In this document: positions 7,698-24,324 of the stretch, piece by piece | How positions within the stretch are numbered: the first letter of the stretch is position 1 | Layout: each line of letters starts with the position of its first letter | Source: Trueperaceae bacterium | GTDB lineage: Bacteria > Deinococcota > Deinococci > Deinococcales > Trueperaceae | Length of the DNA stretch: 64,000 nt | Direction of reading: 5' to 3' | Assembly: GCA_020354625.1 (NCBI GenBank) | Contig: CP070651.1 | Span: forward strand, 1,834,595-1,898,594 | Program-made: the position numbers and the translations under genes | The notes under the pieces: model-generated | Seen by the model: the letters and a program-made list of their open reading frames with translations, nothing else | What the model was told of the DNA's origin: nothing | Database searches by the model: none

Positions 7698-10600
7698 TTA
7701 GCAGCTCGATTCCTTTCCTGGCAACGCTGAAAGCCCCATCTCGCATCGGGTCGTTGCGATCCAGCTATCTCCTACCCGATCGAGCTCACCGTGAAAGGTC
7801 CGCTTGAGCATCTCATCGAGCGTTTTCAGAACGGCCTGGTTGATGAGTTGGTGCGCTAGCACGCACCGGTGCCACAGCTCTCCCTCGACGCTCTCGTCGG
7901 GCACCTCTGTAATGACCGTGAGCCAGCGGGCGGAGGTGTGGGTGGACGGGGTGTCTTCGGCGTTGCGAACGTGGATCGTGAAGGGAAATGGGCCGGTGAA
8001 GTGAAACGGGAGCTCCTTCTTCGTGCGATAGCGGAGGTTGCGCTCCACTTGCGCCGCAGTGGTTGAGGCCAAGGGAGCGTTTTCTCCGAGAGCCGCTGCG
8101 ATGGCTTGCATGAGAGGGTGGCCTATGGTTTCGACGTCGGGCTCGAGGATCAGGATCGACAGGTAGCCAAATGGGAGCGACCAGTCTTCGAAATGGGCGG
8201 GCACGTAGCCGCTGTGAGGTCGCGTCCACTCGTGGGCCGGGTAGCCGTGGTTGTTCAGGTGTAAGAGCGGCGACCAGCGTCTTTGGACTTCTTCGAGGAG
8301 CTGGCGCTCCGGTAGGGTTCGCCCACCTGTGGTGACCGTCGCTTGCACGCTGGCTCCGAGGCTGGTGTAGCGAGCGGCATGGTGCATGTGGCTTGGAGAG
8401 AGCCGGAGGAGCGCCTGGTAGAGCCTGGCTCCGTCGGGGTTCTCCAAGGGGTGAAAGACGAGGTTGAAGCGGTTGAGAAGATTTTGTTCCTGCAGCGCTT
8501 GGGTCAGCCACAAGAAGTCGGCGTTGGTGCTGGTCGGCTCGTTGGCGTGTTGCCGGGCCGAGATCAAGACGGTGGGTTTCCAACGAGAGAGCCGTGCGCG
8601 AGACGCTGCCGGGACGGGAGGAGAGCTCGCCTCGAGGCTGATGAGCGGGGTTCCCAAACGCGTTTCGCGCAGCGGGCGGAGATGGACTGCCGGGTGGTCT
8701 TGGGCGAAAGCCCTGGCTTGTTCGAGAACCTCCATCGGTCCTAGCGGAACCGTCTTTTTCAGGTTGCGCTTTTTCGTTCTGCGTCTGTCGATAGCAGATA
8801 GCGTCAGCTGCGCAAGATGTCCGGCTTCCGTCGAAATGTTGACCTCGAGGTGTACGCCAGAGGGGAGTGGTGCGGCGAAGTCGAGCGCCGGCAGGTTGCG
8901 CTGGAGCCAGCGTAGTTTCCGCTCGAAGAAGGCTGCGGCTTCTTCGGAGTCGACGCGAACATCGAGGGACAGGTGTGGGACGCCTTTCTGGTCGAGCCTG
9001 AGCGTGCGAACGCCGACCTCGGCTCGGTGGTCCGGCGCTTCATGAAAGACGCCCTGAACATCCTCGATGCCGAGGCGGTTGCTACCGAGGCCACGCATCT
9101 CCACCCGGATGTCGGTGTCTTGCCCCGGTCTGTTTCTACAAAATGGGAGGATCCAGCCGGGTGCGATGGCCCGGTCGCGAAGCGAGCGACCTACTCGCTG
9201 GTTGAGCGCTTCGAGCGTTCCGAAGTAGAACTCCTCGTGCATCGCCTCCACCGCCGAACAGGTTTCGTGGTCGATGCCCAGGTCGTGCTCGGGTTCGCTG
9301 GCCGAGAAGTCGATCGCCAGGTCGGTGAAGAAGGGACCGTCGCCATCACCTGTCGCCAGTTCCGGCAGGATGGTGGTGGTGTACCAGTCCCAGGCGAGGT
9401 CGCGGTCGGTGGGCAGGAGGATTTCCGTCCACAAGGTACCGTTTTCAAAGACCTGCAACGCCCCTGTGGTCGGGTTCGTTCTCGGTCCATCCGCTAGGCC
9501 GAGGTAAGGTTTCTCGGCTGTCGGTGGATACAAGGTTAGCTCGAGCAAGACCTCCCTCTCAGCGCTCCTGGCAAGGGCCAGATAGGTTCTTTCCTGCTGT
9601 TCGTTGATGGATAGCTCGACCTGGAGGCCTGGGTGCTCGGACTCGAGCACTTCGGCTGCCGGGTAGAGTTCGCGCAGCCAGCGATCCGCTACCTCGACGC
9701 CGTGTGCATGCGTGGCACAGCGCAGCTCGATCGATGCGGCCCCGAGGGAGACGGCTTGTGGGGCCACGTGTTCCAAGAGCCAGTGCAGCCCAGGCTTATA
9801 GGCGCAGTGGATCGCTACCTCGGCCGTGGTTCCGCGTTCGGAGAAGGTGGTTTCGATGTCTGCGGCGAGCCTCTCTCTGATGGTTTGGTCCTCGCTCAAG
9901 AAGGCGACGACTTGCACTTCTTCGGGGCAATCCGGACCCAAGTTTGCCACGGCGTCGAGGAGCCGCGCTCCTTCCCAGCGAAAGGTTGTTTGCCAGCGCG
10001 TGCGTTCGCCGTCGCGCACGGTGTTTCTCACGGGGAGGCCCAGGAGCTTTGGCGAAGAGGGTGGCGGGGAGGGTAGCAGGGCAAAGCGGCCTTGTGTCGG
10101 GAGCACGGCGTGTAGCGCAGCGACGCTCGCCAAGCGGCCCAAACGCGTGCGGCCATCGAGAAAATCCTTCAGGTTCTCTTCCAGTTCGCTCAAGAAGGTG
10201 CTGCCTGGAAGCTTCGGAAACGATTTGGAAAAATACCTGGCGGCGTGGGCGAGGCCCGCTTCATCGCCGCCGGCAATTTCTAGGTAGCTGCTCCGCTCTC
10301 GGGGTGAGACGCGGATTTCGCCTATGCCGGACGCAAGTGTATCGTCGAGCGTCAGCCCAACGCAGCTCTCCGAGGATGCTCCGGTGAGCGGCAGGCGGGT
10401 GTTGAGCCCTTCGGTGCTCAACCTGGCGGCGACGGTGACGGCTTCGGGTAGGGGGTGGCAGAGGTGGAGGTTGCCCCTGAGCACTTCTGGATGAGCGCTC
10501 GAGCCCGTGTAGAGCCCACCCCCTTGGAGCGCGGTGCCGAGAGAGAAGGAGGTGGACGTGGGCTCGGGGACCGATACCCCTTGCGCAGTTGTAGCGCTTT

Positions 10601-11126
10601 TTGTGTTCGGTGCGTGCCGGCAGGCATGTGGTCGCAGGTAGGACGTTCCGGCGGCTTCGATCTCGGCCAGGTCCGCCGGCATGGCCGGCCAGTCAGGCTC
10701 GGGAATCTCGTGCGCGAACTCGAGCCGCACCTTTCCTTCTCGCCATAGGAGTTTCGAAGGGAGCGCACTCAACAGAGGGGTGAAGAGGTACGCCGAGACG
10801 GCAAGCCAGCGGCAGCCCTGGAGCAGTTCCCCTTCCGAGCGGGCACACACTGCAATCCCTCTTTTGCGCATTACTACTTCGAAACCTTCTGGGGTGGGTA
10901 GGCTTCGAGGAGGATAACGGCCTAGGTAAAAGCCTGGAATGTCCAGGTGCCAGCTGGTGGTGGTAGGTGACAAGACGACAGCGCGGCTCGCGAGGCGGGC
11001 GATCACTTCCGAGGCAGCACACACCGTGTCGATGCCGGCGCCCTCGGGCAAGAACACCTTACCGTTCAGGTGATCCCAAAGGCTGTCGCCGTCGCGGTCG
11101 CTCAGCAGGAGATCGAACAGATCCAC
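7698..11126 (-). CDS. very large M14-type (zinc carboxypeptidase-like) metallopeptidase
   Basis: A 1142-residue protein. The C-terminal third is an M14 domain: zinc motif HANE (His860, Glu863), the conserved HPLENPDGA near 892, a late histidine in HLNNHG (956-960) and a candidate catalytic glutamate in ITEVPD (about 1074). The first roughly 780 residues have no motif I recognise and contain no clear signal peptide, so the enzyme may be cytoplasmic or non-classically exported. Typical M14 enzymes have 300-450 residues. The start is GTG with a weak ribosome-binding site. It lies 45 bp downstream of a HAD gene on the same strand, a possible operon. Confidence 0.75.
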   Translation of the reverse strand: MDLFDLLLSDRDGDSLWDHLNGKVFLPEGAGIDTVCAASEVIARLASRAVVLSPTTTSWHLDIPGFYLGRYPPRSLPTPEGFEVVMRKRGIAVCARSEGELLQGCRWLAVSAYLFTPLLSALPSKLLWREGKVRLEFAHEIPEPDWPAMPADLAEIEAAGTSYLRPHACRHAPNTKSATTAQGVSVPEPTSTSFSLGTALQGGGLYTGSSAHPEVLRGNLHLCHPLPEAVTVAARLSTEGLNTRLPLTGASSESCVGLTLDDTLASGIGEIRVSPRERSSYLEIAGGDEAGLAHAARYFSKSFPKLPGSTFLSELEENLKDFLDGRTRLGRLASVAALHAVLPTQGRFALLPSPPPSSPKLLGLPVRNTVRDGERTRWQTTFRWEGARLLDAVANLGPDCPEEVQVVAFLSEDQTIRERLAADIETTFSERGTTAEVAIHCAYKPGLHWLLEHVAPQAVSLGAASIELRCATHAHGVEVADRWLRELYPAAEVLESEHPGLQVELSINEQQERTYLALARSAEREVLLELTLYPPTAEKPYLGLADGPRTNPTTGALQVFENGTLWTEILLPTDRDLAWDWYTTTILPELATGDGDGPFFTDLAIDFSASEPEHDLGIDHETCSAVEAMHEEFYFGTLEALNQRVGRSLRDRAIAPGWILPFCRNRPGQDTDIRVEMRGLGSNRLGIEDVQGVFHEAPDHRAEVGVRTLRLDQKGVPHLSLDVRVDSEEAAAFFERKLRWLQRNLPALDFAAPLPSGVHLEVNISTEAGHLAQLTLSAIDRRRTKKRNLKKTVPLGPMEVLEQARAFAQDHPAVHLRPLRETRLGTPLISLEASSPPVPAASRARLSRWKPTVLISARQHANEPTSTNADFLWLTQALQEQNLLNRFNLVFHPLENPDGARLYQALLRLSPSHMHHAARYTSLGASVQATVTTGGRTLPERQLLEEVQRRWSPLLHLNNHGYPAHEWTRPHSGYVPAHFEDWSLPFGYLSILILEPDVETIGHPLMQAIAAALGENAPLASTTAAQVERNLRYRTKKELPFHFTGPFPFTIHVRNAEDTPSTHTSARWLTVITEVPDESVEGELWHRCVLAHQLINQAVLKTLDEMLKRTFHGELDRVGDSWIATTRCEMGLSALPGKESSC

Positions 11127-13633: not shown

Positions 13634-14389
13634 GTGAAAATCCAGTACCTGGTGCCCGGCCCCATGTCCAAAGGGCCGATGGGCAAGAAAGAGGTGTTGA
13701 GGCGCCAAGCGCTTTTAAACCAGTGGGCCTTTCCGGGCACCGAGGTCACGGTGGTCGACGTGCCCGAAGGCCCGGCCTCGATCGAGTCGGCCTATGAGGA
13801 GTTGATGGCCGTCCCCGCAACGCTCAAAGGAATCCAGGAAGCCGAGCGTGACGGCTTCGACGCGGTGATCATCGGCTGTTTCGGCGACCCGGGTTTGGAA
13901 GCGGCTCGTGAGCTGGTCGAGATTCCGGTGATCGGCCCCGGGGAATCGTCGCTGCTGCTGGCAGCCGGCCTGGGGCACCACTTCTCGGTGATCACCGTGC
14001 TCGACTCGCTCGTCGCCCCGCAAGAGCAGCAGGCCTTTCGGGCCGGGGTGCTGGCCAAACTGGCCTCGGTGCGGGTCGCCGAGATCCCGGTCTTGGAGCT
14101 CATGAACGATATAGACGCCTCGCGCAGGCGCGTCGAGGCGGTCGGTGCGGAAGCGGTGGAGCGCGACCGGGCCGACGTGCTCTTGCTCGGCTGCATGACC
14201 ATGTCGTTTTTGGGCATTTCCGACGAGGTCTCGAACCGGCTCGGCGTACCGGTCATCAATGCGGGCCGGGCGGCCTTGAAGGCTGCCGAGGGGCTTGTCG
14301 CCCAAGGGCTTACTCACAGCAAGAAGGCGTTCCCAACGCCACCCAAACTGCGTAAGAAGCAGAGTCAACCTGAGGAGGTACTGGCATGA
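13634..14389 (+). CDS. aspartate/glutamate/hydantoin racemase family protein
   Basis: A 251-residue protein of the Asp/Glu/hydantoin racemase superfamily. The two catalytic cysteines are Cys82 (IIGCFGDPG) and Cys187 (LLGCMTMSF). The pattern is closest to hydantoin racemase/AroM-type members. It would invert the alpha carbon of an amino acid or hydantoin. The start is GTG behind GAGGAGGAAG. Its last four bases (ATGA) overlap the start of the peptide-binding protein, so it is the first gene of the transporter operon. This context suggests uptake and epimerisation of peptide- or hydantoin-type substrates. Confidence 0.85.
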   Translation: MKIQYLVPGPMSKGPMGKKEVLRRQALLNQWAFPGTEVTVVDVPEGPASIESAYEELMAVPATLKGIQEAERDGFDAVIIGCFGDPGLEAARELVEIPVIGPGESSLLLAAGLGHHFSVITVLDSLVAPQEQQAFRAGVLAKLASVRVAEIPVLELMNDIDASRRRVEAVGAEAVERDRADVLLLGCMTMSFLGISDEVSNRLGVPVINAGRAALKAAEGLVAQGLTHSKKAFPTPPKLRKKQSQPEEVLA

Positions 14390-16032
14390 AGAAGTTCGTT
14401 TTTGCTCTCGTCGCGATGATGTTGGCGGCAGCCGTCTGGGCGGAGGGGGACCAGATCCGTTCTTTCGAGCTGCTGTCGCGCACCCAGGCGGAGGACCCCA
14501 CCGAGTTCCAGGCGGCGCAGCTGGTTGCCCAGGAGTGGCGCAAGCTCGGCCTCGACGTCGAGCACAAGGCCATCCCCTGGGAGCAGCTGGCCCAGGTGGT
14601 CTGGTTCGATAGGGATCCGCCCGATTGGGACATGACCATGTGGCGCATGGTCGGCCGGCCTGAGCGGAGCGATCCGGATGAGCTGATCTACAACCTGTTC
14701 CACTCGAGCACCGCCGATGCAGGTTACAACTTCATCGCCTACAGCAACCCCGAATACGACGCCGTGGTCGAGGCGCAGCGCGTCGAAACCGATCCCGACG
14801 CCCGCCAGGCGCTCATCATCCAGGCCCAAGAGATCCTGGACCGCGACCAGCCGAACGCCTTCTTGGTCCACCCGCAGCAGGCCTACGCCTACCGCTCGGA
14901 TATCTGGGACCCCGCCACCGTCGTCGAGCAGAGCGGCATCGGCATCAAGAACTTCTGGACCTTCGTCGACGCGGCGCCGCTCACCGATCAGCGCGACATG
15001 ATTCTCAACAGCGGGGTAGTGGTCCAAGCGATCAACCCGCTCTACATCAGCGGCGCCACCGACTCCTGGATCACCGAGTTGATCTGGGACCGGCTCTTGC
15101 GGATCAGCCCCGAAGGTTTGGCCGAGCCGTGGGCAGCGGAGAGCTACAACTGGGTCGACGACACCACCATCGACGTGACCTTACGCAGCGGCATGACGTG
15201 GCACGACGGGGAGCCTGTCACTGTAGAAGATGTGGTGTTCTCCTTCCAGGCGCCGCAGGGTGATGAGTCACCCATGTACAAGCCGTTCGTCTCGGGTATC
15301 GCCGACATCGCCGCGCTCGACGAGAACACGGTGCGCTTCACGCTCAGCCAACCCTCGGCGGCCTTCCTGACCGCGACCCTGGCCAAGATCAACTTGGTGC
15401 CGCTCCACATCTGGGGCCCCATCCTCGATGACCTCTCTACCAAAGACGAGAACGCCGAGAGCTATCAAGAAGAGATCCCCATCGGCTCCGGCCCCTTCAA
15501 GTACGTCAATTGGCTCCGTTCGCAAGAGGTGGTCTTGGAGGCCAACACCGAACACTTCTCGGCCCCCGAGATCGACCGCTGGATCCTCCGCATCATCCCC
15601 AACGCCGAAGCCTCCTTGGGCATGCTCCGCAGCGGTGAGCTGAACTTCCTGAGCGGCTACCTGGGCGACCCGCAGGTGTTGGTCCAGACCTCTGAGGGGC
15701 AGCCGATCGATGTCGTTGCCTCCACCGAGGTCGGCTTCCGCTACGTCGCCTTCAACCACCGTGCGGCGCCCTTCGACGATCCCGCCTTCCGGCGTGCCCT
15801 GTCGCTGGCGTTGAACCGCAACTTCTTCGTCCAGGCTGCCTACAAAGGCTTTGCTGTGCCCTCCAACTCGCCGGTTTCGACCGCGCTCGGTTTCTGGACC
15901 GCTCCCGGTATCACCGATTTGGAGACTGGTATCGAGCTGGCCAAGGGGATTTTGGCCGAAGCCGGCTACACGCTCGACGGTCGGGGGAGGTTGCACTACC
16001 CCGACGGCGTCACCGAACAGCACGGGAACTGA
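14386..16032 (+). CDS. ABC transporter substrate-binding protein (SBP_bac_5 type), circularly permuted
   Basis: A 548-residue extracytoplasmic binding protein with a signal peptide (1-19, cut near AVWA). Residues 24-192 resemble the C-terminal part of DppA/OppA-type proteins: FQAAQLVAQEWRKLGLDVE, LFHSS, YSNPEYDAVVEA, AQEILDRDQPNAFL. Residues 203-530 resemble the usual N-terminal part: INPLYISG, GLAEPWAAESYNW, LRSGMTWHDGEPVTVEDVVFS, then IGSGPF, ending at the AKGILAEAGY..DG.G.L.YPDG segment that normally precedes the C-terminal block. The two halves are therefore in swapped order. It is expected to bind peptides or a related solute for the permeases downstream. Confidence 0.85.
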   Translation: MKKFVFALVAMMLAAAVWAEGDQIRSFELLSRTQAEDPTEFQAAQLVAQEWRKLGLDVEHKAIPWEQLAQVVWFDRDPPDWDMTMWRMVGRPERSDPDELIYNLFHSSTADAGYNFIAYSNPEYDAVVEAQRVETDPDARQALIIQAQEILDRDQPNAFLVHPQQAYAYRSDIWDPATVVEQSGIGIKNFWTFVDAAPLTDQRDMILNSGVVVQAINPLYISGATDSWITELIWDRLLRISPEGLAEPWAAESYNWVDDTTIDVTLRSGMTWHDGEPVTVEDVVFSFQAPQGDESPMYKPFVSGIADIAALDENTVRFTLSQPSAAFLTATLAKINLVPLHIWGPILDDLSTKDENAESYQEEIPIGSGPFKYVNWLRSQEVVLEANTEHFSAPEIDRWILRIIPNAEASLGMLRSGELNFLSGYLGDPQVLVQTSEGQPIDVVASTEVGFRYVAFNHRAAPFDDPAFRRALSLALNRNFFVQAAYKGFAVPSNSPVSTALGFWTAPGITDLETGIELAKGILAEAGYTLDGRGRLHYPDGVTEQHGN

Positions 16033-16094: not shown

Positions 16095-17084
16095 ATGACA
16101 GGTATTTCCCGTTTTGGCCGACGCTTCCTGCAGATGGTTTTCGTCTTGTGGGCGGTGGCCACCATCTTATTTTTTCTCTTTCGGCTGGCTCCCGGCTCGC
16201 CGCTGGCGGCCTATATCGAGCCGACTTTTACCCAGGAGCAGCAGGAGTCGATCCTGCGGCGCTTCGGCCTGGATCGTCCCGTGCACGTGCAGTACGGCAT
16301 CTATCTGCTGAACCTCCTCAAAGGCGACTTGGGGGACTCTTTTCACCTCAGCGGCTCGGTAGCCTCGATCGTCCGCGACGTGTTCCCCTACACCATCGCT
16401 CTCACCCTGGTATCGCTCATCATCGCCTACATTATCGGGGTGCTGGCCGGCGCGTTTTTAGCCTGGCGGCGGGGGAGCGTGTTCGAGGGGATCACCATCC
16501 CCCTGGTGCTCACCACCCGCGCCGCGCCCGAGTTCTGGCTCGGCATGATCTTGCTGGCCTTTTTCAGCTTCAAGCTGGGTTGGTTCCCGGCGGGGGGTGC
16601 GCTCAGCCCCGGGGCGGAATTCCCGAACAACTTCGCCCGCTTCTTTTCGTTCGACTTCTTGCGGCACCTGTTTCTACCCGGGCTTACCTTGGCCATCTAC
16701 CTGCACGGTTTGCCGCTCCTCTTGATGCTCTCGAACATGCTCGAGATCATGCAAGACGACTTCGTGACCATGGCCGAGATGAAGGGGTTGTCGACCTGGA
16801 CGATCCTGGTGCGCCACGCCGCCCGCAACGCCCTATTGCCGGTGGTCACTGCGTTCGCCCTGGGAGTCGGCTACTCGATCGGCGGCAACGTGGTGGTCGA
16901 GACGGTCTTTAGTTGGCCCGGTCTGGGGCGGGTTCTGGTGCGGGCGGTGGCCTCCAGCGACTACCCGTTGGCGCAGGGCGCGTTCTTTGTGATCGCGGTG
17001 GTGATGATCTTTATGAACTTTATCGCCGATCTCCTCTACAGCTCGCTCGACCCGAGGGTATCAAGTGGCGACGCCAAACACTAG
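16095..17084 (+). CDS. peptide-type ABC transporter permease (DppB/OppB-like)
   Basis: A 329-residue inner-membrane permease. The first helix and FRLAPGSP motif are typical of DppB/OppB. The coupling EAA loop appears as MAEMKGLSTWTILVRHAARNALLPV near 222-247. About six membrane helices are visible. It pairs with the DppC-like permease whose start overlaps its end by 20 bp. The transported solute is probably a peptide or similar small molecule, inferred from family and neighbours. Confidence 0.9.
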   Translation: MTGISRFGRRFLQMVFVLWAVATILFFLFRLAPGSPLAAYIEPTFTQEQQESILRRFGLDRPVHVQYGIYLLNLLKGDLGDSFHLSGSVASIVRDVFPYTIALTLVSLIIAYIIGVLAGAFLAWRRGSVFEGITIPLVLTTRAAPEFWLGMILLAFFSFKLGWFPAGGALSPGAEFPNNFARFFSFDFLRHLFLPGLTLAIYLHGLPLLLMLSNMLEIMQDDFVTMAEMKGLSTWTILVRHAARNALLPVVTAFALGVGYSIGGNVVVETVFSWPGLGRVLVRAVASSDYPLAQGAFFVIAVVMIFMNFIADLLYSSLDPRVSSGDAKH

Positions 17085-17988
17085 CTTACGGACCGCCCGG
17101 CCGTCTCGCTGGCGGCTCTTCGTCCGCTCTCTGGCCGGCACCGGTGCCTTGCTGTTGCGCGACCCGTATGCGCTCTTCGGCACGGTGGTCTATGCGCTTT
17201 TTGTGTTGATCGCGCTTTTCGCCGAGCAGCTGGCGCCCTTCGACCCTCTGGAGATCCTTTTTACCCCCGAAGGTAACTTGGCGGCCGATCTGAGGCCGAG
17301 CCGGGAGCACCCGCTCGGCACCACCAGCCTGGCGCGCGACGTCTACTCCCAACTCCTCTACGGCACCCGTAGCGCCCTGTTGGTGGGGGTCACCGCGGCT
17401 TTTTGCGTGGTCGCCATCGGTACGGTGGTGGGTCTGGTGGCCGGTTACTTCGGCGGCCTGGTGGACACCGTGCTCATGCGTCTGGCCGATATCGCCTTCG
17501 GCATCCCGTTCCTGCCCTTCGTGATCGTGTTGGCCGCCTTTTTGGAGCCGAGCGTCTGGAACGTGGTGCTGGCGATGGCGCTGATCTTGTGGCGCGATAC
17601 CGGCCGGGTGATCCGCAGCCAGGTACTGACCGTGCGCGAGCGTTCGTATGTGGAGGCCGCGCGGGTGACGGGCTCGAGCACGCCGCGCATCATCTTCTTG
17701 CACATCGCCCCCAACATATTGCCGCTCTCGTTCCTTTACGGTTCGATCGCGGTGGGTTGGGCGATCCTCACCGAGGCCAGCATCAGCTTCCTCGGTTTCG
17801 GTGACTCCAACGTAATCTCGTGGGGCTATATGTTGCAAGATGCGTTTGTTTCCCAAGCGCTTTCGCGCGGTTCCTATTACTGGTTCGTGCCGCCGGGAAT
17901 AGCGATCGTGCTGGTGGTGACGGCCGGCTTTTTCATCAGCCGGGGCTACGAAGAGCTGCTCTTTCCGAGGTTGAGAGAGGAAGATTAG
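17065..17988 (+). CDS. peptide-type ABC transporter permease (DppC/OppC-like)
   Basis: A 307-residue permease starting at GTG within the 3' end of the dppB-like gene. The N-terminal helix is followed by the characteristic HPLGTTSLARDVYSQLLYGTR segment (about 80-100). The EAA loop lies in SYVEAARVTGSSTPRIIFLHIAPN (about 192-215). Six helices fit the DppC/OppC fold. It forms the second half of the membrane channel. Confidence 0.9.
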   Translation: MATPNTSLRTARPSRWRLFVRSLAGTGALLLRDPYALFGTVVYALFVLIALFAEQLAPFDPLEILFTPEGNLAADLRPSREHPLGTTSLARDVYSQLLYGTRSALLVGVTAAFCVVAIGTVVGLVAGYFGGLVDTVLMRLADIAFGIPFLPFVIVLAAFLEPSVWNVVLAMALILWRDTGRVIRSQVLTVRERSYVEAARVTGSSTPRIIFLHIAPNILPLSFLYGSIAVGWAILTEASISFLGFGDSNVISWGYMLQDAFVSQALSRGSYYWFVPPGIAIVLVVTAGFFISRGYEELLFPRLREED

Positions 17989-18083: not shown

Positions 18084-19085
18084 TTGATCCTCACCATCGA
18101 AGATCTCAAGGTTCACTACCGTTCCCGGCGGGGCGCCGTCCAGGCGGTCGATGGTGCCGACTTGTCCGTGCCCAAAGGGCAGATCATGGGTCTGGTGGGC
18201 GAGTCCGGCTGCGGTAAGACCACCCTGGCCAGGGCGATCATGGGGGTGTTGCCCAGAAACGGTCTTTTGGCTGGAGGCAAGATTCACTTCGACGGCCGGG
18301 AGTTGCGGGCTCGAGACGAGAGCGCCCTGCGAGCGCTTCGTTGGCGCGATATCTCCTTCATCCCCCAGAGTGCCATGAACTCGCTCGACCCCGTCTACCG
18401 GGTCGGCGACCAGCTCAAAGAGGTGCTGGTGCAGCGCGGCGGCTATGCCCGCGAGCGGGCGACGGAACGGTCGGTGGAGCTCTTTGGGTTGGTGGGTCTC
18501 GATCCGGCGCGGCTCCGCGACTACCCGCACCAGTTCTCGGGCGGGATGCGCCAGCGGGCGGCTATCGCCCTCGCTCTGGCGCTCGACCCCAAGCTGATCA
18601 TCGCCGATGAGCCGGTAACGGCCCTCGACGTGATCGTGCAGCGCCAGATTCTCGATACCCTCAAAGAGCTGCAGCGCCAGCTCCGCTTATCGGTGTTGCT
18701 GGTGACCCACGATATCAGCGTGGTGGCCTACGTTTGCGATCAGGTGGCGGTGATGTACGCCGGGCGGGTGGTCGAGTCGGGTCCGGCGCAGGTGGTCCTG
18801 ACCCGGCCCTTCCACCCCTATACCATGGGCCTCTATAACGCTTTTCCCGACCTCGAGCGCGCCACCGGCGAGCTGACCCCGATCGAGGGCAGCCCTCCGG
18901 ACCTGCGAACCCCACCCGAGGGGTGCCGCTTCGAAGCGCGTTGCCCCTTCGCTGTCAGCGATTGTGGCAAGGCTCCTGCCCTCGAGGAGATCGAGCAGGG
19001 GCACCAGGTGGCTTGTTGGCGTGCCGGCGAAGCGGTCCAACTCAGGGAACAGGCTGCGGAGGTGAGTACGTGGCAGCGCTCGTAG
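18084..19085 (+). CDS. peptide-type ABC transporter ATP-binding protein (DppD/OppD-like)
   Basis: A 333-residue ATPase. Walker A is GESGCGKTT (about 39-47), the Q-loop is in FIPQSAMNSLDP, the signature is FSGGMRQR and Walker B is LIIADEPVTALD. The C-terminal oligopeptide-transporter extension is present with its conserved cysteines (GCRFEARCP, a later Cys and the final CW). The start appears to be TTG at 18084, 95 bp after the permease gene; no ATG fits the conserved N-terminus. It energises import with the partner ATPase downstream. Confidence 0.9.
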   Translation: MILTIEDLKVHYRSRRGAVQAVDGADLSVPKGQIMGLVGESGCGKTTLARAIMGVLPRNGLLAGGKIHFDGRELRARDESALRALRWRDISFIPQSAMNSLDPVYRVGDQLKEVLVQRGGYARERATERSVELFGLVGLDPARLRDYPHQFSGGMRQRAAIALALALDPKLIIADEPVTALDVIVQRQILDTLKELQRQLRLSVLLVTHDISVVAYVCDQVAVMYAGRVVESGPAQVVLTRPFHPYTMGLYNAFPDLERATGELTPIEGSPPDLRTPPEGCRFEARCPFAVSDCGKAPALEEIEQGHQVACWRAGEAVQLREQAAEVSTWQRS

Positions 19086-20047
19086 AAGTCGACGGCCTCA
19101 AGAAGCACTTCCCGGTCAAAGGAACGATCCTCGAGTCGCTAAGAGGCCAGCGGCAAGTAGTCCGTGCCGTGGACGGGGTCAGCTTTCGCCTCGAGCAAGG
19201 CGAAAGCGTCGGTTTGGTCGGTGAGTCGGGTTGCGGCAAGACGACGACCGGACGCCTACTCCTCAAGTTGCTCGAGCCGACCGAGGGGAGCATCCGCTTC
19301 GACTCCCAAGAGGTCGGAGCCCTGGAAGGGCCGGAGCTCAAAGCGTTCCGGCGCCAGGTGCAGCTGATCTTCCAGAACCCTTTCGAGGCCCTCAACCCGC
19401 GCTTTACCGTCTACCGTTCGCTGGCCGAACCGCTGGTGAACGCGGGCATCCCCAAAGATGAACACCCCGAGCGGATGCACAGGGCGATGGAGCATGTGCA
19501 TCTGCACGACACCGACCTCTACTACGACAAATTCCCACACCAACTTTCAGGTGGACAGCTTCAACGCGTGGTGCTGGCCCGGGCGCTGGTGCTCGAGCCG
19601 AGCTTCGTCGTCGCCGATGAGCCGGTGTCGATGCTCGATGTGAGCGTCAGGGCGGGGATCCTCAACGTCATGCGTGAGGCGCGCGACACCCTCGGCCTTA
19701 CGGCTGTATATATCTCTCACGACCTGGCGCTGGTGCGCTACGTGTGCGAGCGCACCATCGTCATGTATCTCGGCAAGGTCATGGAGGATGGCCCCACCGA
19801 AACGGTCATCAAGGAGCCGGCCCACCCCTACACTCAGGCGCTGGTGCAGGCGGTGCCCACTCCCCACCCCGATCAGTCGCACGACCCTCTGCCGATCCAC
19901 GGCGGGGTTCCCGACGCCAAGGCTCCCCCGTCGGGATGCCGCTTTCGAGACCGCTGCCCGCATGCCTTCGAGCGGTGTGCCCTCGAGGAGCCGAAGGCGC
20001 GTGAACTCGCTCCCGGGCATGTCGTCTACTGCCATTTGCACGATTGA
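19070..20047 (+). CDS. peptide-type ABC transporter ATP-binding protein (DppF/OppF-like)
   Basis: A 325-residue ATPase. I place the start at GTG 19070, behind GCGGAGGTGAG and overlapping the preceding gene by 16 bp. The frame is open further upstream, but the family N-terminus (LVEVDGLKKHFPVKG) begins here. Walker A is GESGCGKTT, the Q-loop LIFQNPFEALNPR, the signature LSGGQLQR, Walker B FVVADEPVSMLD. The C-terminal Cys-rich extension GCRFRDRCP..C is present. It completes the transporter. Confidence 0.9.
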   Translation: MAALVEVDGLKKHFPVKGTILESLRGQRQVVRAVDGVSFRLEQGESVGLVGESGCGKTTTGRLLLKLLEPTEGSIRFDSQEVGALEGPELKAFRRQVQLIFQNPFEALNPRFTVYRSLAEPLVNAGIPKDEHPERMHRAMEHVHLHDTDLYYDKFPHQLSGGQLQRVVLARALVLEPSFVVADEPVSMLDVSVRAGILNVMREARDTLGLTAVYISHDLALVRYVCERTIVMYLGKVMEDGPTETVIKEPAHPYTQALVQAVPTPHPDQSHDPLPIHGGVPDAKAPPSGCRFRDRCPHAFERCALEEPKARELAPGHVVYCHLHD

Positions 20048-20174: not shown

Positions 20175-21350
20175 ATGCTGACCCTCGTTTTTGCCAAGGG
20201 GATCGTCGATGGAACCGGCACGGGGTTCCACCCTGAGAAGGCGCTTTTAGTCGAGGAGGGACGGATCGTCGAGGTGGCGCCGGTTGAAAAGCTGCGGCCG
20301 CGTGCCGATGAGGTGCTCGACCTCGGCGATACCGTCCTGCTGCCCGGCTTTATCGATGCCCACACCCACATCACCGTCCGGCCCGGCGAAGGGGATCAGC
20401 ACGGTCAACTGGCTAAGCCGGTCGTCTGGCAGGCGCTGCGCGGTGTAGAAAACGTACGTAGGATGCTGTTGTCGGGGGTTACTACGGCTCGGATCATGGG
20501 GGAGCGGGCCGGCATCGACTTCGCCTTCAAGCAGGCCACGCGCAGCCAAGAGGTGTTGGGTCCCCGTCTGCGCGTCTCCGGCACGGCGCTCAGCGCTTCG
20601 CACGGGCACGGGGCGGCTCTGGGCGTCGCCGACGGCGTCGACGAGATCCGTAAGGTGGTGAGGGAAAACCTCCGCAACGGGGCCGATCACATCAAGCTGT
20701 TCGTGACCGGTGGGGTGTCGAGCTCCGGTACCGATGTCTACGCCTACCACTATTCCCGGGAGGAGATTCGGGCGGCGGTGGAGGAGGCGCACCGGGCCGG
20801 CCTTCGGGTGGCGGTGCACGCACACGGGGGCGAGGGCGTGGATCTCTGCGTCGAAGAGGGGGTCGACTCGATCGAACATGGGGGGCTCCTGACCGCGGGA
20901 AACATCGAAAAGATGACTTCTGCCGGTAGCTGGCTGGTACTAACCAACACCATCGCCTTTCATCCGTCTGGAATCGAACAGGGGGACGCCCAGAACCCGG
21001 GCATCATCTCCAAGTTGAAGCGGGTGCGCGAGATCAGGGAGGTGACCTTCCAAGAGATCCTCGAGGCGAAGGTGCCGTACGCGCTCGGGACCGATTCGAT
21101 GCACGGCCTCTTCGGTTATGAGATCGAGTGGCTGGTGGAGCACGGTGTTTCGCCGGAGGATGCGATTCAGGCTGCCACCCGGCGTGGTGCAGAGGTGCTC
21201 GGCTTGGAGAATGAGCTCGGTACGCTCGAGCCGGGTAAAGCAGCCGATATCGTGGCGGTAGCGGGGAACCCGTTAGAGGACATCCACGCCGTCTTCCGCG
21301 TGGCTGCCGTATTAAAAGGAGGACGACTCTTGTGGATCGGTGGGAGGTAG
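20175..21350 (+). CDS. metal-dependent amidohydrolase family protein
   Basis: A 391-residue amidohydrolase close to the Xaa-Pro dipeptidase/imidazolonepropionase-like group. The metal residues are present: HTH (His63, His65), the candidate carboxylated Lys174 in HIKLF, His215 and His217 in VHAHGG, His235 in SIEHGG and Asp307 in GTDS. The terminal LEPGKAADIVAVAGNPLEDI is the usual beta-sandwich closure. It hydrolyses an amide bond, plausibly in a dipeptide imported by the transporter just upstream. It has a strong ribosome-binding site (GGAGAGGAGGAG). Confidence 0.88.
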   Translation: MLTLVFAKGIVDGTGTGFHPEKALLVEEGRIVEVAPVEKLRPRADEVLDLGDTVLLPGFIDAHTHITVRPGEGDQHGQLAKPVVWQALRGVENVRRMLLSGVTTARIMGERAGIDFAFKQATRSQEVLGPRLRVSGTALSASHGHGAALGVADGVDEIRKVVRENLRNGADHIKLFVTGGVSSSGTDVYAYHYSREEIRAAVEEAHRAGLRVAVHAHGGEGVDLCVEEGVDSIEHGGLLTAGNIEKMTSAGSWLVLTNTIAFHPSGIEQGDAQNPGIISKLKRVREIREVTFQEILEAKVPYALGTDSMHGLFGYEIEWLVEHGVSPEDAIQAATRRGAEVLGLENELGTLEPGKAADIVAVAGNPLEDIHAVFRVAAVLKGGRLLWIGGR

Positions 21351-22429: not shown

Positions 22430-23134
22430 TTAGCTCACCGCCAACTTACGCGGGCTTGGGAAGGTCACGGGGCTGTGTGTGAGGCCGGACCCGACCAGCA
22501 TCTCGGCGGCCCGCAGCGAGAGCAGCACCGAGTTGATGACGGGTACGCCCACACCTGCCTCGATCTGAGGGGCGAGGAGCGACATGCTGGCACAGCCGAA
22601 GACGAGCAGTTCGGCGCCGTCATCCTGCACGCAGGTGCGACCCAACGAGATCAGGGTGTCTACGGTGTTCTGGTCGGCTTGCCGGAAGGCCTCGACCGGC
22701 AAGTCGAGCGAGCGTATAGAGGCCACGAACGGGGTCATACCGGTCTTGTGAACCTGTTCTCTGGCCAGCGGGACCGTCTCTTTCAGGGGCGTGAGCACCG
22801 AGAAGTGGTGCGCCAGCATGCGTGCGGTCAGCAGGGCGGTCTCGCCCGGCGCGATCACCGGGATGCGCACCAGCTCGCGCGCCGTCTCGACGCCTGGGTC
22901 GCCGAAACAGCCGGTGATCACCCCGTCGAAACCGCGGCGCTCGGCCGCCTGGCAGCGTTCCACCACCCAGTAGGCCAGCTCGAGCTCTTCGAGCCGCGAT
23001 TCGATGCTGGAGGGTTTGTCGCGCGTTCCCTTGAAGTCGGATAGGTTGTCGAGGGTTACGCCGGGGCTGGCGTGCTGCTGCAAGTATGAAAGCCGTGCGT
23101 CGTTTCCGAGAAAGCAGAGTTTCACCGCCACCAC
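22430..23134 (-). CDS. aspartate/glutamate/hydantoin racemase family protein, second copy
   Basis: A 234-residue homologue of the racemase at 13634-14389. The two cysteines are Cys76 (ITGCFGDPG) and Cys181 (VFGCASMS). Similarity between the two runs along the whole length, including the PVI(G/A)PGE motif and the SGLTHS C-terminus. Its GTG start overlaps the end of the M19 dipeptidase gene by 13 bp, so the two are translationally coupled. Racemase plus dipeptidase fits processing of peptides with D-residues, an inference from context. Confidence 0.83.
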   Translation of the reverse strand: MVAVKLCFLGNDARLSYLQQHASPGVTLDNLSDFKGTRDKPSSIESRLEELELAYWVVERCQAAERRGFDGVITGCFGDPGVETARELVRIPVIAPGETALLTARMLAHHFSVLTPLKETVPLAREQVHKTGMTPFVASIRSLDLPVEAFRQADQNTVDTLISLGRTCVQDDGAELLVFGCASMSLLAPQIEAGVGVPVINSVLLSLRAAEMLVGSGLTHSPVTFPSPRKLAVS

Positions 23135-24324
23135 ACCTCTTTGAGGGCCCGCATGATGTTGCCGCCGATGATCTTGGCGATGTCACCGTCGCTGTAGCCG
23201 TGTGTGACGAGCCAGCGCACGATGTTGGGGAAGGCCTCGGCGGGGTTCTCGAGGCCCTCGACGTACTCGACCCGCTCGTACTCGACGCCGGCGTGGGACT
23301 TGCCGATCGAAAGTGGTCCGGCGAGCAGGCGGTGCAGGCCGACGTGATCGCCGAAGAGAACGTCGGGGCCCAAGGCCACGTGGTCGATGCCGACCAGGTC
23401 GGCTACGTATTCGACGTGCTCCATAAAGGGTTCGATCGAGTGCCGGGTGTTTTTTGGGGTCAGGGTGGTATGGGGCGCGGCCTCGATGCCGATGACGCCT
23501 CCCTTTTCGGCGCAGGCTTTGATGACCTCATCGGGCTTCAGCCGCCGGGTATTCCAAAGCGCCCGCGCGCCGGCGTGGGTGATGAACACCGGTCGGTCGC
23601 TGGCCTCGATGGTGTCGAGTGCGGTCTGATCGCCCGAGTGCGAGATGTCGATGGCGATGCCGAGCTTGTTCATGCGCTTCACGGCCTCGCGCCCGAATTG
23701 GGTCAGGCCCCCGTCGCCCGCCTCGCGCAAGCCGGCACCGAGCGAGTTCCCCTCGCTGTAGGCGATGCCCATCGAGCGCACACCGATGCCGTAGAGGATG
23801 TCGATCCGGTCGAGTTCGTTTTCGATCATGCTCGAGGACTCGAGCGAGACGATGAAGCCGATCTGACCGTTCGCTTTGGCGCGCTCGATATCCTCGGTGG
23901 TCAGCGCCAGCACCACCATGTCCTGGTGGGCGATGTCGCTGAGCCTGAGCCCGATGTCGGTGATGATGTCGTCCCACTTCCAGCCGGCCTTGGAGGTGAT
24001 CATGGCGGTGCCGTCCATCATGGCATCGAACACCGCGTCGAGGCCTGAGTGGCTCAAGCCCTCGTAGCCGGTCCAGTCGCGCCCCTGGCGGCGGAACTCG
24101 AAGAAGTCCTCCAAGTTCTTCGGGGCGACGAAACAGTGATCGTGGAGCGAGATCACGATGTTCTCTTCGAAGAGGCGCTCGACGCGGGCCTCTTGCGCCT
24201 CGGAGACCGGGTAGGTAAAGGGTTCGACCCGGCCGATCTCGTCTACCAGCTCGAACGCCTTGTAGTCGACGCCTGCTTCGAGATACTGGTAGGATTTGTA
24301 GCCCTTGTAGTTCTTCTTTTGCAT
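23122..24324 (-). CDS. membrane dipeptidase (peptidase M19, renal dipeptidase-like)
   Basis: A 400-residue M19 protein. The zinc residues are recognisable: His61 and His63 of SLHDHC, Glu162 in VSLESSS, His229 in DISHSGD and His250 in ITHAGAR. The catalytic-site Asp321 is in GIDHVALGPD. No signal peptide is visible, so it is probably cytoplasmic, as in many bacterial homologues. M19 enzymes cleave dipeptides and tolerate D-residues at the C-terminal position, which suits the neighbouring racemase and transporter. Confidence 0.9.
   Translation of the reverse strand: MQKKNYKGYKSYQYLEAGVDYKAFELVDEIGRVEPFTYPVSEAQEARVERLFEENIVISLHDHCFVAPKNLEDFFEFRRQGRDWTGYEGLSHSGLDAVFDAMMDGTAMITSKAGWKWDDIITDIGLRLSDIAHQDMVVLALTTEDIERAKANGQIGFIVSLESSSMIENELDRIDILYGIGVRSMGIAYSEGNSLGAGLREAGDGGLTQFGREAVKRMNKLGIAIDISHSGDQTALDTIEASDRPVFITHAGARALWNTRRLKPDEVIKACAEKGGVIGIEAAPHTTLTPKNTRHSIEPFMEHVEYVADLVGIDHVALGPDVLFGDHVGLHRLLAGPLSIGKSHAGVEYERVEYVEGLENPAEAFPNIVRWLVTHGYSDGDIAKIIGGNIMRALKEVWWR

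Follow-up and report, generated by a model that had tools for sequence, protein, structure and literature searches.

In OppA and DppA, lobe I is built from both ends of the polypeptide chain, with lobe II (domain III) inserted. The gene at 14386-16032 (+) of the window, i.e. the whole 64,000-nucleotide stretch of a Trueperaceae bacterium genome analysed here, raises the question of whether a peptide-binding protein of this family can occur naturally with its two sequence segments in reversed order and, if so, whether the reversal is confined to this locus or is inherited, and how often it has arisen.

Segment order in the window protein

The gene encodes 548 residues in one frame, with an ATG start and no internal stops; the initial annotation had likewise described a single open frame. 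The domain order is signal peptide, C-terminal third of SBP_bac_5, N-terminal two thirds, and the chain terminates at the point where the canonical C-terminal block would begin. The Sec-type signal peptide comprises residues 1-19 (14386..14442, +; MKKFVFALVAMMLAAAVWA followed by EG), both its N-terminal MKKFVFALVAMMLAAAVWAEG and its cleavage site being judged by eye from the translation, and no lipobox cysteine is found in it on inspection. The C-terminal third (C-block) follows at residues about 26-176 (14461..14913, +) and corresponds to positions 272-365 of the Pfam profile, 351-504 of a canonical HMM and 364-494 of AppA. The native C-terminus is joined to the native N-terminus through residues 177-212 (14914..15021, +), 36 amino acids lying between HMM positions 504 and 53; since these are the counterparts of the canonical chain ends, no extra linker domain is needed. 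The N-terminal two thirds (N-block) occupies residues 213-541 (15022..16008, +; Pfam 3-283, canonical HMM 53-360), and the aligned ends of permuted proteins delimit a new C-terminal tail after EAGY528 (15970..16029, +) that derives from the cut loop of the canonical chain. This short tail after the cut-loop helix, dGrLhYPDGvtE, is kept in window-type proteins. The domain layout first proposed, with blocks at residues 24-192 and 203-530, is correct to within a few residues; what it omitted is the tail YTLDGRGRLHYPDGVTEQHGN beyond the last N-block helix.

The order is reversed against three independent references. The Pfam family PF00496 scores 249 bits against a cut-off of 32.4, with both segments covered and each above the cut-off by itself: profile positions 3-283 (of 368) match residues 247-533, and residues 1-202 searched alone match positions 272-365 with an E value of 1.1e-9, which likewise passes the curated cut-off. 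The split-profile check that had been proposed beforehand thus yields two SBP_bac_5 matches in reversed order. A canonical SBP_5 HMM of 521 positions, made from 20 canonical proteins encoded in this genome and in related ones, places hmm 351-504 first (E 1e-27, residues about 12-176) and hmm 53-360 second (E 5e-73, residues about 213-541); as controls, all 53 canonical proteins of the N- and C-block trees were scanned with this HMM and display the normal order. Among PDB chains, AppA and DppA match the protein in two pieces in reversed order, the AppA chain (1xoc) aligning by phmmer as two swapped pieces with E values of 1.7e-27 and 4.1e-9. Pfam, the canonical HMM and the PDB chain agree that the canonical N-to-C order is absent, so that the protein is a permuted variant and not a canonical SBP_bac_5 member, and the circular permutation suggested by the initial annotation is borne out. 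AlphaFold2 applied to a 4-row alignment (the window protein with L001-L003) gave a pLDDT of 41, and a scan of viral contigs for additional homologue rows found none.

Two other origins of such a sequence have to be weighed. Fusion of the C-terminal block of one SBP lineage ahead of the N-block of another would be consistent with the differing rates of evolution of the two blocks, and a C-block donor cannot be fixed because the C-block tree is poorly resolved. However, the two blocks cover the family once with ends that match at the cut, and in both permuted clades described below the C-block and the N-block have one and the same set of permuted proteins as their nearest neighbours; such a chimera is accordingly quite improbable. 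GC and GC3 are similar in the C-block (0.649/0.89) and the N-block (0.627/0.85), and a recent graft is therefore not indicated. As to an artefact of assembly or scaffolding, or a pseudogene in decay, runs of N at about 2400-2670 of L062 and about 1800-1900 of L063 reveal the single-contig assembly to be a gapped scaffold in which two other SBP genes are cut. The window, in contrast, contains no N, and intact frames of the same order occur in many independent assemblies, including complete plasmids, which leaves an artefact scarcely credible. The "split" SBP halves in these two loci were themselves discarded as scaffold gaps cutting genes rather than real splits, and in-frame TGA or TAA codons in G020, G023, G030 and G015, considered as recoding or decay, have the coordinates of the terminal stop. 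Because both blocks are SBP_bac_5, together give full family coverage, are cut in a loop, and keep their order in about 40 proteins, the arrangement is taken as permuted rather than chimeric or accidental: the window protein is very probably a naturally circularly permuted solute-binding protein (SBP) of family 5 (type II / cluster C).

Operon context and distribution of permuted relatives

The permuted gene lies in an operon whose context is intact, as had been claimed for it. A gene of the Asp/Glu/hydantoin racemase family (13634..14389, +; PF01177) overlaps the SBP start, its stop and the SBP start sharing ATGA, and a ribosome-binding-like GAGGAGG (14372..14378, +) is present upstream of the ATG. 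Downstream on the same strand, family profile searches identify a DppB/OppB-type permease (16095..17084), a DppC/OppC-type permease (17065..17988), a DppD/OppD-type ATPase with oligo_HPY (18084..19085) and a DppF/OppF-type ATPase (18923..20047) whose true start is probably inside the listed frame, near 19070; i.e. two BPD_transp_1 permeases and two oligo_HPY ATPases are encoded with the permuted SBP. Then come an amidohydrolase resembling Xaa-Pro dipeptidase (20175..21350, +; PF01979; NF051886 at 277 bits, below the cut-off of 500) and, on the other strand, a second racemase family gene (22430..23134, -; PF01177) and an M19 membrane dipeptidase (23122..24324, -; PF01244). Elsewhere in the window, 7698-11126 (-) encodes a 1142-residue protein that resembles M14 zinc carboxypeptidases only weakly, and only around residues 805-905.

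The rearrangement itself, as first described, is upheld; its restriction to this locus is not, for it belongs to an inherited and widespread family to which a second, probably independent, permuted clade must be added. Full-length collinear homologues in swapped order are found in genomes of the same family (72, 71 and 64% identity), in two Roseomonas-type genomes (59 and 58%) and in a Chloroflexia MAG (57%). Others are plasmid-borne, in Nitratireductor (62%), Microvirga (60%), Neorhizobium (58%) and Ketogulonicigenium (53%), as well as in Roseomonas, and in many haloarchaea and Maritalea at 24-33%. Overall, identities are 52-72% in the same family, Alphaproteobacteria and the Chloroflexia MAG, and 24-36% in haloarchaea and others. 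In about 40 distinct permuted proteins checked with the canonical HMM the cut loop is identical, after the helix ending ...LLxEAGY, and in all permuted proteins checked the moved block begins at the strand or helix next after that helix. On sequence comparison the permutation is therefore an old, inherited and conserved feature common to bacteria and haloarchaea, and not a local accident. All annotated records that were opened name the permuted protein just "ABC transporter substrate-binding protein"; no permuted SBP_5 was found named in NCBIfam or in the literature searched, a weak negative given incomplete literature coverage.

The gene neighbourhood is retained along with the protein. Close relatives preserve the whole row, from the racemase gene through the permuted SBP to both permeases and both ATPases, in synteny, with the racemase gene directly upstream of the permuted SBP also in L034, L048, L049, L050 and L059, and most of the distant relatives keep SBP, permeases and ATPases together. 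Permuted homologues without a Dpp-type permease alongside are rare. Permeases of main-clade haloarchaea and of distant loci in the same phylum are 41-52% identical to those of the window (41-51% for the haloarchaea), at least as close as the best paralogue in its own genome (42%, among 40-odd paralogues), so the importer lineage goes with the permuted receptor. This arrangement bears on a further alternative, that the exported protein is no longer a transporter receptor and serves, e.g., as a sensor or chaperone. Some haloarchaeal permuted members do stand beside a PAP2 phosphatase gene with no permease genes nearby, but the window protein and most members adjoin DppB, DppC and two ATPases in order, and loss of the receptor role is very unlikely. 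From its long conservation and gene context, we infer that the permuted receptor is functional.

Among the haloarchaeal loci, permuted SBP genes in L054, L116 and L117 form pairs with a gene for either a PAP2 phosphatase or an inositol phosphorylceramide synthase, with no permease nearby, and in Natronorubrum the pair of permuted SBP and phosphatase-type genes is duplicated in tandem.

Number of origins

A second permuted clade (P0002 type) is known from six genomes (L043, 555-2171; also L042, L044, L045, L085 and L087). Its members share 66-70% identity and the same cut loop, and lie beside DppB/DppC-type permeases of another lineage, only 32-37% identical to those of the window. The N-block of this clade is 44% identical to canonical SBPs as against 25% to the window protein, and outside its own phylum its best matches (on plasmids) are canonical two-piece alignments. 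In a tree of sequences first rearranged into canonical order, the clade is sister to a canonical protein with support of 100/92; the permuted state requires four changes on this tree, at least three of them forced by the starred branches. Constraining all permuted proteins to one clade costs 107 log units (AU p 0.00036), or 81 log units (AU p 0.0039) when the very long Salipiger row is left out. A tree of the N-block alone gives the same picture as the full tree. With its 144 columns, the C-block by itself yields a tree that lacks the strength to demand a second origin.

A single ancient permutation, with the second clade and a canonical-order Cytobacillus SBP (L060, 2884-4680) misplaced or reverted, would account for the cut loop common to all permuted proteins, and it accords with the C-block tree and with the presence of long branches. 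Against it are the rejection of one clade by the AU test with or without the Salipiger row, the well-supported canonical sister of the second clade, the canonical two-piece form of that clade's best matches beyond the phylum, and its permeases of another lineage; a single origin is on balance unlikely. Given the AU rejection of one clade and the canonical sister of the second, the permutation quite probably arose at least two times, each time at the same loop after ...LLxEAGY. The route may have been tandem duplication followed by trimming, or some other rearrangement; no duplicated or tandem intermediate was found among the proteins examined.

Three further sequences touch on this history. 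The unconstrained tree places L060 within the main permuted clade, but a tree that excludes it is not rejected (p 0.136), so the main clade may itself be a single one; this Cytobacillus protein may be sister to the ancestor that preceded permutation, or may have reverted. Salipiger L055 (5896-7632) and its homologue in Neorhizobium sp. NCHU2750 (CP030829) are very divergent permuted SBPs. L055 was dropped as a clear third origin, its full-length collinear matches outside its own type being main-clade permuted proteins; this type may have arisen by a third permutation, or may belong to the main clade and have evolved fast. A second-type permuted SBP also occurs in G075, a genome of the same order and probably of Thermaceae, with its C-block at 1423-1944 of L127 and its N-block at 80-880 of L088, the two blocks being truncated at the ends of two contigs (C78 and C103); the gene is probably broken between contigs and decayed.

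Putative working, precedents and significance

The chain would fold into the usual two lobes, its old termini meeting in lobe I and its new ones lying in lobe II. With the native ends united and a lobe II loop opened instead, lobe I would become continuous and lobe II would be built from the two chain ends, the reverse of OppA and DppA, and the strands crossing the hinge would still be two, so that the Venus-flytrap motion can be kept. After export by Sec, the protein is proposed to hold a peptide-like or cyclic amide ligand in its cleft and to dock on the adjacent DppBC-like permease. The first permutation would predate the spread of the main clade among Deinococcota, Alphaproteobacteria, Chloroflexota and haloarchaea, presumably by horizontal transfer, and another permutation would have taken place in the separate clade of the window's own family.

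In DppA, Arg355 and Asp408 are taken here to bind the ligand carboxylate and amine, respectively, i.e. the two ends of a dipeptide. This pair is absent from the window protein: in a profile alignment with E. coli DppA (8z1y_F), Arg355 is replaced by Gln34 (14485..14487, +) and, after a two-residue insertion, Asp408 by Glu93 (14662..14664, +) in MVGRPERSDPDE. These replacements suggest that the ligand is unlikely to be a plain dipeptide bound in the manner of DppA, and the NCBIfam DppA model scores 99 bits against a cut-off of 1005. Permuted SBPs elsewhere neighbour M28 and M20 peptidases and hydantoinase/oxoprolinase A and B; together with the racemases, the Xaa-Pro-like amidohydrolase and the M19 enzyme, these neighbours suggest, as the predicted nutrients, peptides or cyclic amides of the hydantoin or oxoproline type.

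AppA (1xoc), DppA (1dpp) and OppA resemble the window protein in that both segments are homologous, the protein is exported and importer genes are of DppBCDF type; they differ in that their segments are not swapped and that neither terminus lies in the loop following the LLxEAGY helix. The only natural precedent for a permuted ABC binding protein found in the literature searched is the cluster B protein TpMglB-2 (Tp0684) of Treponema pallidum ("type Ic / cluster Bc"), which is permuted yet still encoded with importer genes, binds glucose and changes shape (PMC4990184), and by analogy indicates that a permuted receptor can function. Unlike the window protein, TpMglB-2 has the cluster B sugar-binding fold, is cut in the N lobe, belongs to another sequence family and is poorly conserved in sequence in its moved part, which in the window protein is clearly homologous (PMC4990184); a Pfam search of the latter matched only SBP_bac_5, with no homology to MglB or cluster B. 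The cpRAS GTPases are another natural circular permutation (PMC2430557), the same type of event, with native ends joined and new ends in a loop, in a fold and function that are unrelated.

The kind of event is thus already known; what is added is a permuted branch of SBP family 5 that is widespread, has gone unrecognised and probably originated more than once. It is fairly likely that cluster C SBPs have been permuted repeatedly and independently at one loop, forming a hidden class, "cluster Cc", spread between bacteria and archaea with its own importers. In database annotation, permuted SBPs pass for ordinary binding proteins, and tools that expect a collinear order overlook them or cut them in half; they also constitute evolved permutants of peptide-binding proteins, ready for biosensor design. 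Natural circular permutations are seldom caught recurring, and here one seems to have done so at least two times in a large and well-studied receptor family. This recurrence makes it testable why the cut loop is tolerated, and whether termini in lobe II alter opening, docking or tethering. If repeated permutation at the same loop is true, lobe II would be a favoured site for the chain ends and the importer would be indifferent to their position.
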